This document shows positions 60,696-63,282 of a stretch of 64,000 bases of DNA, piece after piece. Under the pieces are notes generated by a model. That model was not told the origin of the DNA. It saw only the letters and a program-made list of their open reading frames with translations, and made no database searches. Numbering within the stretch: position 1 is the first letter of the stretch; the number at the start of each line of letters is the position of its first letter. Origin of the DNA: an uncultured Clostridia bacterium (GTDB taxonomy: Bacteria > Bacillota > Clostridia > Christensenellales > Borkfalkiaceae); the NCBI GenBank assembly GCA_930990665.1, contig CAKNQN010000003.1:62001-126000 (forward strand), read 5' to 3'. The translations under genes and the position numbers were made by a program.

Positions 60696-62006
60696 TTAAC
60701 GGTAGACGGGGAGCCAGCCTTTATGCGCCTCGAAAAGATCGTCGCAGAGGCTCTTGATGTCGTCGAGGGAGAGCTCGGCGGCGGTGTGCGGGTCGAGATA
60801 GGCTGCCATGTACACGGCCTCTTTGCTGCGCGTTCTGGCTGCTTCGATGGTCATGTTCTGAACATTGATGTTCGTGCGGTTGAGCGCGGCGCACTGTTCG
60901 GGCAGCGATCCGAAATAGCAGGGATTGACGCCGCAGCCGTCGATCATGCAGGGCACTTCCACGCAGGCGTTTTGCGGGAGATTGTCGATGAGCCCCGTAT
61001 TGAGCACGTTCCCGTGAATCTTATATGGCACGTCGTTGATGACTGCGCGGATGATGGGCATGCCGAACTCATGGCTGATCTCGTGCTTCACGTTTTCGGA
61101 AACGAGGGTCTTCTGCAATTTTTCCCATCCCGCGATCTGGTTGACACAGCGGCGCGGATACTCGTCGAGCGGGATGTTGTACCGCTCGATGAGCTCCGGA
61201 TACTTCGACTTGATATAGTAGGGATTGTATTCGGCGGTGTGTTCGCTCGATTCGGTATTGTAATAACCGAAACGGTGCATGATGTCGTGGCGGACGAGGT
61301 CATTTTTCATCTTTTCCGCATATTCGCCGCTCAGCGAACGGCGCTTGATCTCGGGATAGAGGTCGTTGCCCGCCAGATCCACGATTTCGGTAAGCCAGGC
61401 TTGGTGGTTGATGCCCGCGATCTTCCAGCGGCATTTTCCGATGTATTCTTCCATGCCCAGTTGCTCGAAAAGAATCTTTACGCAAACCTGCACGCTGTGG
61501 CACAGCCCCACCGTGCGCACGTCGAGATAGCGTTGCATATACCCCGTGAGCATCGCCATGGGGTTGGTATAATTCAGAAAGAGTGCGCGCGGGCATTCTT
61601 TATGCATGTCCTCGGCAAACTCGTCCAGAACGGGAATGGTGCGAAGTGCCCGGAAAATGCCGCCGATGCCGAGCGTATCTGCGATCGTCTGGCGCAAGCC
61701 GTACTTTTTCGGGACTTCAAAATCGGTGACCGTGCACGGCTTGTATCCGCCCACCTGGATGGCGTTGATGACAAAATCTGCACCGCGAAGCGCTGCACGC
61801 CTGTCCGTATATGCGCGGATCTTTGCCTTCCCATTATAGTTTTTGTTTATGCTCTCCAACATGCGGCGGGAATCTTCCAACCGCTTTTCGTCGATATCGT
61901 AAAGAGCAATGTCAAACTCGCCGAGTTCGGGCGAAAGAATGCAGTCGCCCAACACATTTTTCGCAAAAACGGTGCTCCCTGCGCCCATAAACGTGATCTT
62001 GAACAT
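60696..62006 (-). CDS. melA: Glycoside hydrolase family 4, alpha-galactosidase-like
   Basis: 436 residues. NAD-binding Rossmann start FKITFMGAGSTVFAKNVLGD, then DIALYDIDEKRLEDS, DFVINAIQVGGYKP, NYTNPMAMLTGYMQR, the metal-binding GLCHSVQVC (CHSV form, typical of alpha-galactosidases; 6-phospho-glycosidases differ) and KIAGINHQAWL. The enzyme needs NAD and Mn and works by oxidation-elimination at C3. Cytoplasmic. It is divergent from an AraC gene, its likely controller, via a nested promoter. SD GGAG. Confidence 0.92.
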   Translation of the reverse strand: MFKITFMGAGSTVFAKNVLGDCILSPELGEFDIALYDIDEKRLEDSRRMLESINKNYNGKAKIRAYTDRRAALRGADFVINAIQVGGYKPCTVTDFEVPKKYGLRQTIADTLGIGGIFRALRTIPVLDEFAEDMHKECPRALFLNYTNPMAMLTGYMQRYLDVRTVGLCHSVQVCVKILFEQLGMEEYIGKCRWKIAGINHQAWLTEIVDLAGNDLYPEIKRRSLSGEYAEKMKNDLVRHDIMHRFGYYNTESSEHTAEYNPYYIKSKYPELIERYNIPLDEYPRRCVNQIAGWEKLQKTLVSENVKHEISHEFGMPIIRAVINDVPYKIHGNVLNTGLIDNLPQNACVEVPCMIDGCGVNPCYFGSLPEQCAALNRTNINVQNMTIEAARTRSKEAVYMAAYLDPHTAAELSLDDIKSLCDDLFEAHKGWLPVYR

Positions 62007-62041
62007 GTGTGTCTCCTTTTTTCGGAAATTTTCGTATTTCT

Positions 62042-62070
62042 ATTGTATCACGGCGCACTTTGTGATACAA
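62042..62070 (-). promoter_or_regulatory. melA promoter on a symmetric inverted repeat
   Basis: Minus strand TTGTAT (62070-62065), 17 nt, TACAAT (62047-62042). It coincides with the plus-strand promoter offset by one base. Confidence 0.72.
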
Positions 62071-62071
62071 T
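62043..62071 (+). promoter_or_regulatory. araC (62123) promoter on a symmetric inverted repeat
   Basis: TTGTAT (62043-62048), 17 nt, TACAAT (62066-62071). The inverted repeat arms are TATTGTATCAC (62041-62051) and GTGATACAATA (62062-62072). Confidence 0.72.
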
Positions 62072-62080
62072 AAAAATTGT

Positions 62081-62096
62081 ATTGAAAACTTTCAAT
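62081..62096. promoter_or_regulatory. Small palindrome, putative operator
   Basis: ATTGAAA-AC-TTTCAAT lies just after the expected plus-strand transcription start and upstream of the minus promoter. Confidence 0.45.
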
Positions 62097-62122
62097 TTTG
62101 TTTACTCGGGGGAAGAGATCAT

Positions 62123-62971
62123 ATGGCCACGTCCTTTTACGACATACAGAAAAAACTTTTTCCGCTGGCAGATACCGATTTTCAGATCGCGATCTTCGGA
62201 TTCCAGGGTTCCGAACCGGGACACCGCCACCGGGCGATCAAGCAGGAACACGTACTGCAATATGTGATCGGCGGCCGCGGCTTTTACGAGGTGGGCGGAA
62301 AGAGCTATTCCCTGGCGGCGGGAGACATGTTCTACCTGCCGAAAAACGAGCTCGTGTATTATTATGCTGACCCGAAGGACCCCTACCGGTATTATTGGCT
62401 GGAGATCGACGGCGCTTCGGTACGGCAGCTCCTTGAAAGGGCGGGCTTTACAAAGGATACACCCGTCGCGCACATCGACGACCAGGCGATCGAAATTCTG
62501 TTCCGGCGTATCTGGCCGAAGATCCTCCAGAACACTTTTTCCGGCTACCTCGCCGCCAAAGGACTCACCTACGAACTGATCGCGCGCCTGCTCTCTTTCC
62601 GGCAGGACAACGCGGAAAAGCTCCAGCCGCCCGCCGTGCAGTATGTGGAACAGGCCATCCGCTTTATCAAGGAAAATTTCAGCGAGAACATCGGCGTAGC
62701 CGACATTGCCGCCGCCGTCGGCGTGGGCAGAACCTATCTGAGCGTGCTCTTTTCCCGCCTGACAAGCCTTTCGCCCGTGGAATACCTCCTTTCCTATCGC
62801 ATCGAACAGGCCAAAAAAATGCTCGATTTCGGCGTGTCCGTCACGGAAACCGCCACCAGCTGCGGATTCAACTCCCCCGCTTACTTCTCGACCCGTTTCA
62901 AAAACAGCACCGGCCTCTCCCCCTCCGCTTACAGGGCGGCAAGCGCCAAAACAGATGACAGCAAAGACTGA
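62123..62971 (+). CDS. AraC-family regulator of the alpha-galactosidase gene
   Basis: 282 residues. N-terminal AraC_binding cupin (HRHRAIKQEHVLQYVIGGRGFYEV, LAAGDMFYLPKNELVYYYADP, YRYYWLEIDG), a linker, and the AraC HTH pair (GVADIAAAVGVGRTYLSVLFSRL; SVTETATSCGFNSPAYFSTRFKNSTGLSPSAYR). It is of the MsmR/RafR type that activates alpha-galactoside genes, matching the divergent GH4 gene. SD GGGGGAAG. Confidence 0.92.
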   Translation: MATSFYDIQKKLFPLADTDFQIAIFGFQGSEPGHRHRAIKQEHVLQYVIGGRGFYEVGGKSYSLAAGDMFYLPKNELVYYYADPKDPYRYYWLEIDGASVRQLLERAGFTKDTPVAHIDDQAIEILFRRIWPKILQNTFSGYLAAKGLTYELIARLLSFRQDNAEKLQPPAVQYVEQAIRFIKENFSENIGVADIAAAVGVGRTYLSVLFSRLTSLSPVEYLLSYRIEQAKKMLDFGVSVTETATSCGFNSPAYFSTRFKNSTGLSPSAYRAASAKTDDSKD

Positions 62972-63004: not shown

Positions 63005-63044
63005 AAGGGAGCGGCCCGCGCAAATTTGCGCGGGCCGCTCCCTT
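63005..63044. terminator. Perfect 40-nt palindrome, terminator-like
   Basis: AAGGGAGCGGCCCGCGCAAA/TTTGCGCGGGCCGCTCCCTT has exactly complementary 20-nt arms, 33 nt after the araC stop. Only CTATAAAATC follows, so the T-run is weak, but it is well placed for the convergent genes. Confidence 0.7.
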
Positions 63045-63282
63045 CTATAAAATCTCATTTACCGATATCTTATTTGCCGATATCTTATTTGCCGATATCT
63101 TATTTGCCGCCGCACGGGCGAACTCTTTCAAGCTAGGCCCGACGGGCAGCGCCTCAGAGGCGAGGCCGCATGGGCCAACTTTTCAGATATGGCCGCCCGG
63201 GTAAAATCACGCGGGCAGGACCTTGGGGCGTAGCCTTGCGGCCAACGTCGCGCAGCGCCGTTCAGGCAGAGCCGCGCAGACG
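63045..63282. other. Gene-free tail between araC and the permease (span 62972-63282)
   Basis: It has the palindrome, a 15-bp tandem repeat and a GC-rich stretch with small hairpins (GCCCGACGGGC). No gene seen. Confidence 0.5.
63054..63110. repeat. 15-bp tandem repeat, about 3.8 copies
   Basis: The unit CTTATTTGCCGATAT repeats at 63069 and 63084, with a variant (CTCATTTACCGATAT) at 63054 and a truncated copy (to TTGCCGC) at 63099. Each copy contains TTATTT, and no ORF spans it. Confidence 0.9.

Follow-up and report, generated by a model that had tools for sequence, protein, structure and literature searches.

The 116 bp gap between the divergent genes melA and araC of an uncultured Clostridia bacterium (Christensenellales; Borkfalkiaceae) contains an inverted repeat that reads as a promoter on both strands. 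This raises the question of whether the repeat is the shared core of two overlapping promoters or a regulator-binding site with a secondary resemblance to promoters, and of what would then set the direction of transcription. The window (the whole stretch of DNA analysed, 64 000 nucleotides) comprises positions 62 001–126 000 of contig CAKNQN010000003.1 (assembly GCA_930990665.1), and positions are counted from its first letter. The source genome assembly is incomplete (74% complete) and the whole-genome scans covered 1.45 of 1.50 Mb, as stretches.

Gene organization

The melA product scores 614 bits against NCBIfam NF011657 (cut-off 486), which places it in the α-galactosidase subfamily, and both the GH4 and the GH4C domains of Pfam are matched. 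The regulator matches HTH_18, HTH_AraC and AraC_binding in Pfam and, with this double helix–turn–helix and ligand-binding domain, belongs to the AraC/XylS family. The gene names given in a preliminary description of this DNA are thus correct. The genes and start signals are as follows.

60696–62006, − strand: melA, GH4 α-galactosidase of 436 residues (NCBIfam NF011657; Pfam Glyco_hydro_4 and 4C)
62004–62006, − strand: melA start codon, with a Shine–Dalgarno-like GGAG at 62016–62013 (−)
62123–62971, + strand: AraC-family regulator of 282 residues (Pfam AraC_binding, a cupin, and HTH_18)

Downstream of araC there is a strong hairpin (63007–63042), and just after it a 15 bp unit, CCGATATCTTATTTG, is present in three perfect tandem copies (63062–63106).

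Sequence and geometry of the inverted repeat

The repeat at 62041–62072 has the form TATTGTATCAC-N10-GTGATACAATA, with two 11 bp arms (62041–62051 and 62062–62072) separated by a 10 bp spacer. The + strand reads TTGTAT (62043–62048)-N17-TACAAT (62066–62071) and the − strand reads TTGTAT (62070–62065)-N17-TACAAT (62047–62042), so that each −10 hexamer shares 5 bp with the opposing −35-like hexamer. Direct reading confirmed the coordinates, the N17 spacing and the reciprocal 5 bp overlaps that had been reported. An additional feature, overlooked in that account, is the TG of an extended −10 element in each arm (62063–62064 on the + strand and 62050–62049 on the − strand). The TTG in each arm is located 17 bp from the opposing −10, and the cores of both predicted promoters therefore lie on the same DNA and face opposite genes, an arrangement of overlapping divergent promoters. 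By its sequence, each arm is predicted to be the −10 of one promoter and the weak −35 of the other: the extended −10 (TG-n-TACAAT) would serve the gene lying on the same side as the arm, and the TTG would serve the opposite promoter. The elements are listed below.

62041–62072, no strand: predicted nested dual promoter core with 11 bp arms and N10 (N10 in 8/8 orthologs)
62042–62050, − strand: predicted extended −10 of melA, TG-A-TACAAT (TACAAT at 62047–62042, TG at 62050–62049)
62065–62070, − strand: putative weak −35 of the melA promoter, TTGTAT, N17, within the araC −10 (TTG and spacing invariant in 8/8)
62063–62071, + strand: predicted extended −10 of araC, TG-A-TACAAT, with an upstream TG giving the TRTG form (TG and TACAAT in 8/8)
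62043–62048, + strand: putative weak −35 of the araC promoter, TTGTAT, N17, within the melA −10 (TTG and spacing invariant in 8/8)
62035, − strand: predicted melA transcription start, an A located 7 nt past the −10, from which it is inferred (leader of ∼28 nt)
62078–62079, + strand: predicted araC transcription start, likewise placed from its −10 (leader of ∼45 nt)

The window has one copy of the 18-base motif, compared with 0.01 expected from shuffled sequence, and at zero mismatches the motif is found at a single place in the genome, the melA–araC gap. Such perfect symmetry, with arms of 11 bp or more, is nevertheless not unusual in the window (∼17 distinct sites, mainly G+C-rich hairpins), and symmetry by itself is therefore weak evidence. 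The −35-like TTGTAT agrees with TTGACA at only three of six positions, which explains why this promoter pair is absent from the list produced by the consensus scan.

Conservation among orthologous regulators

Orthologs of the regulator were compared in eight genomes including the source genome; the other seven sequences are 34–73% identical (tblastn), six of them from the same family and one from another family of the order. The position of the element and its exact N10 spacing are kept in all eight. The TG-n-TACAAT pattern is retained in both arms of all eight loci, with the TG present in 15 of the 16 arms: the melA-side arm has TACAAT in 8/8 and TG in 7/8, and the araC-side arm has both in 8/8, together with the T further upstream that belongs to the Gram-positive TRTG form. 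Mean pairwise identity is 98% for the core arm columns, 54% for the `n' columns and 40% for the spacer. Fixed core columns with a drifting `n' and spacer are the pattern of an extended −10. Conservation of a symmetric element in relatives had been proposed as a check; it is the extended −10 elements and N10 that are kept, and perfect symmetry is confined to the source genome among the eight. With a simple promoter score, the arm ranks first towards araC in 8/8 loci and towards the enzyme gene in 7/8, where these promoter weights, like the repeat scoring used below, are our own heuristics. The exception is G136, in which the melA arm lacks the TG and ranks third towards the enzyme.

A search of 398 genomes of the family with ATTGTAnCA-N12-TGnTACAAT gave six places at zero mismatches, all six upstream of this regulator, while a control search with the reversed pattern gave one chance match, at up to one mismatch. 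This exclusive location, the invariant spacing in 8/8 orthologs and the perfect 11 bp arms of the source genome, with centres 21 bp (two helical turns) apart, would also suit a palindrome that is mainly a dimeric operator for the AraC protein or another repressor, with its promoter resemblance secondary. We regard this explanation as unlikely, in part because the arm bases that are kept spell an extended −10, with its `n' as the position that varies freely. In addition, the two arms of a locus are no more alike than shuffled partners (75 identical positions compared with 73.3; P = 0.23), as expected of two promoters rather than of a matched dyad, although this test covers eight loci and a relaxed operator would give the same result.

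A direct repeat next to the element

Immediately to the right of the element is a 21 bp direct repeat, missed in the preliminary description, with TGT cores at 62078 and 62099.

62076–62092 (limits approximate), + strand: putative AraC half-site R1, core TGTATTG at 62078–62084 (TGT in 7/8 orthologs)
62097–62113 (limits approximate), + strand: putative AraC half-site R2, core TGTTTAC at 62099–62105 (TGT in 8/8 orthologs)

When the 45 bp downstream of the element is compared across the orthologs (eight loci), no repeat period other than 21 bp stands out (z = 2.8; next 1.2). A core-anchored test on 20 loci gave a clear result, clearer than a first period test on eight distant loci with 10 bp windows and no core motif. 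R1–R2 is likely to be the site of the adjacent AraC-family protein. From the predicted starts, R1 spans approximately −41 to −57 relative to melA and coincides with the start of araC. The repeat adjoins the −35 of melA, which is the sequence arrangement of an AraC class II promoter. Compared with the TGTTGCA found in relatives, the R1 and R2 cores of the palindrome-bearing clade are more loosely defined.

The pentamer TTGTA is common to the arms and to the R1/R2 cores, and the regulator might touch the arms as well. This shared pentamer is a further point for the palindrome as an operator; against that explanation, a separate AraC-type direct repeat is present. The sharing of TTGTA by both arms and R1 also suits a dual role, in which the promoters are nested and the arms contain low-affinity AraC half-sites through which the apo-regulator represses both genes, an arrangement likened to AraC looping and to the tet and bio operators. 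The invariant N10 fits this dual role as well, but a second AraC box would have to lie in the spacer, which is not conserved, and we consider the dual role somewhat less probable than a simple operator.

Two other − strand promoters were considered and rejected. The pair TAAACA...TACAAT (62104–62076) relies on a TACAAT-like core in R1 that is missing in most orthologs, and TTGAAA...TATTGT, found in the scan, was set aside with it since the R1 core is not kept in most orthologs.

Related AraC–GH4 pairs without the palindrome

The comparison sample contained 40 divergent AraC–GH4 pairs from across Clostridia, of which 20 lack the palindrome and have a good TGTTGCA-like 21 bp repeat. In 17 of these 20, the distance between the repeat and a −10-like hexamer towards melA (most often TATAAT) is 30 or 31 bp; among pairs of gap values excluding 31, the best accounts for 5 of 20 loci. 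In the palindromic clade the melA-side TACAAT is exactly 30 bp from the TGT core of the repeat. The match in distance marks the left arm, independently of the palindrome, as the −10 of melA, and it puts R1–R2 at the position of a class II AraC activator, approximately −41 to −78 relative to the start predicted for melA. On the other side, R1–R2 overlies the beginning of the araC transcript as predicted, from approximately +1 to +35.

These pairs (L149, L159, L174, L270, L299 and others) resemble the locus in gene content, in the 21 bp repeat and in the 30–31 bp distance to the melA −10, but their araC promoter is elsewhere, at various distances, and the reciprocal −10/−35 overlap with an offset (d) of 24 is absent. 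In non-palindromic pairs such as L291, L294 and L296, the best araC −10 is 52–53 bp from the melA −10 (seven loci) or 42–43 bp (four loci). Relatives of this type appear to be arranged in other ways, with the operator placed on the promoter of araC.

That related pairs possess the repeat without the palindrome, and preserve the melA −10 distance, argues against the palindrome as the operator. This alternative had already been raised with the first description of the repeat; the separate 21 bp repeat and, as far as eight loci show, arms without extra symmetry make it the less likely reading. The proposal of overlapping, mutually exclusive promoters has gained from the −10 elements in 8/8 orthologs and from an operator distance of 30 bp as in relatives, but the switch does not appear to be one of built-in competition only.

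Promoter signals in the genome

The extended −10 is a real promoter signal in the source genome, as judged from the orientation bias of TG-n-TATAAT upstream of genes (44 forward compared with 15 reverse). All 16 arms have TACAAT, whereas C is found at that position in 8 of 52 TG-n-TAyAAT sites upstream of genes. A TATAAT would take the TTG from the opposite strand, and the C therefore fits dual use of the arms. An operator would also account for C in 16/16 arms, and the same invariant C, at position 3 of the −10, is in keeping with half-sites in the arms. These explanations are opposed by arms that occur alone. Against an operator, GTGATACAATA recurs four times elsewhere in the genome as an unpaired arm, in three cases with a TTG 17 bp upstream; against half-sites in the arms, single-arm, promoter-like TACAAT sites with no opposing arm are present upstream of other AraC genes (L151, L155 and L156). 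A regulon defined by further copies of GTGATACAATA was rejected, as the four others resemble ordinary single promoters. In the whole-genome scan of opposing promoter-like sites, the offset d = 24 was found once, at the melA–araC element; the commonest and enriched offsets are d = 2 and d = −1, which correspond to the shared −10 of known bidirectional promoters.

A chance palindrome, or an RNA hairpin or terminator, with no regulatory promoter is highly improbable in spite of a single-strand fold z of −2.4 and the many hairpins in the window, since the genes are divergent, the eight orthologs keep the element while its spacer drifts and, for the hairpin or terminator in particular, no T-run follows the repeat and the predicted transcripts begin outside it.

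A similar element, ATTGTTTCAC-N10-GTGnTACAAT (L042:1501–1530), precedes a pectinesterase gene and shows strong conservation, being shared with ∼17 further genomes of genus g8 (among them L039, L041, L043–L056 and L059). Only its pectinesterase-side arm contains a −10; the other arm has an invariant TTTCAC, and a separate TATAAT at a greater distance belongs to the divergent gene.

Comparison with known systems

In the araBAD operon of E. coli, a 21 bp direct-repeat operator (I1–I2) immediately precedes the −35 of the enzyme genes and the regulator gene is divergent. The melA–araC locus is similar in its 21 bp repeat at the enzyme −35 and in its divergent regulator (AraC-type class II). The araC–araBAD region has two separate promoters, and a distant half-site forms a loop; here, both promoters are predicted within the same 32 bp. 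At E. coli bioA–bioB, the arms of a palindrome overlap elements of two opposing promoters, as in the present case, but that palindrome is the site of the BirA repressor, whereas the regulator site at melA–araC appears to be the separate direct repeat. A third comparison is PacrA/acrR, whose driver, SoxS, is itself an AraC-family protein.

Bidirectional promoters have been recognized only recently, and there has been very little work on how they are controlled (PMC12825309). As described by Warman, Wade and Grainger (PMC12825309; PMC10268837), they consist of pseudo-symmetric DNA to which polymerase binds in either orientation, in a mutually exclusive manner, and a protein that activates transcription one way can repress it the other way. 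By definition they have a shared −10 and divergent starts 7–25 bp apart, mostly 18 (PMC10268837). The melA–araC element lies outside this definition: its −10 elements are separate (62042–62047 and 62066–62071), each overlapping the opposing −35 instead of being shared, and 43 bp separate its predicted starts. In its working it may resemble a bidirectional promoter, although it is not one by definition. From its sequence, it would be grouped with divergent promoters that overlap, one edge having activation of the araBAD type, and it appears to be a new layout of a known kind. No description of this clostridial AraC–GH4 element was found in the open-access literature searched.

Proposed mechanism

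We consider it probable, from the sequence comparisons, that two divergent σA promoters are nested with the element as their common core and that AraC binding favours melA and shuts off araC. RNA polymerase would load in one orientation at a time because both cores overlap within 32 bp. With no inducer, the stronger araC promoter (TRTG extended −10) would be used at a low level. In the presence of inducer, AraC bound to R1–R2 (62076–62113) in the class II position would recruit polymerase in the melA orientation. Transcription of araC would then be turned off in two ways, through occupation of the shared core and through obstruction of the araC start (+1 to approximately +35) by AraC.

AraC binding beside and over the element should thus set the direction. 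At PacrA/acrR, strong activation by SoxS towards acrA represses acrR via polymerase competition, but bound SoxS itself is no hindrance to the acrR transcript (PMC12825309), so that the obstruction half of the predicted shut-off is less certain than the competition half. The `built-in switch' first suggested for this locus probably needs an activator, since basal competition was negligible in the promoters tested by Warman et al. (PMC12825309).

Origin and retention beside a different enzyme

In a maximum-likelihood tree of 41 regulators, the eight palindrome-bearing ones are on one side of a branch with support of 98/96, and shuffling of the labels never gave a value as low as that of the observed grouping. 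Such clustering in one clade fits a single origin of the nested layout. In one of the eight loci (G048; L069:3877–3908), the divergent gene encodes GLAA-B domains (a GH110-type α-galactosidase) instead of GH4. In spite of this unrelated enzyme, the regulator, the promoter element and R2 are retained and R1 is weaker, beginning with CGT instead of TGT. Retention of the element beside a GH110-type enzyme suggests that the switch travels with the regulator, and we infer that it responds to α-galactosides.

The fuller account towards which we lean, with less confidence than for the shared core itself, is a conserved switch within one footprint: the arms would act as −10 and −35, TACAAT/TTGTA would be under dual selection, an AraC dimer at the edge would orient the polymerase, and the arrangement would have evolved once in Clostridia and been kept after enzyme replacement. 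On this account, the locus would be a natural, conserved case of near-identical promoters in both directions with a dedicated activator at one edge, in which polymerase orientation as a switch is directly testable with single-base changes. The operator-to-−10 rule for AraC–melA pairs across Clostridia aids the prediction of regulation in uncultured gut bacteria.
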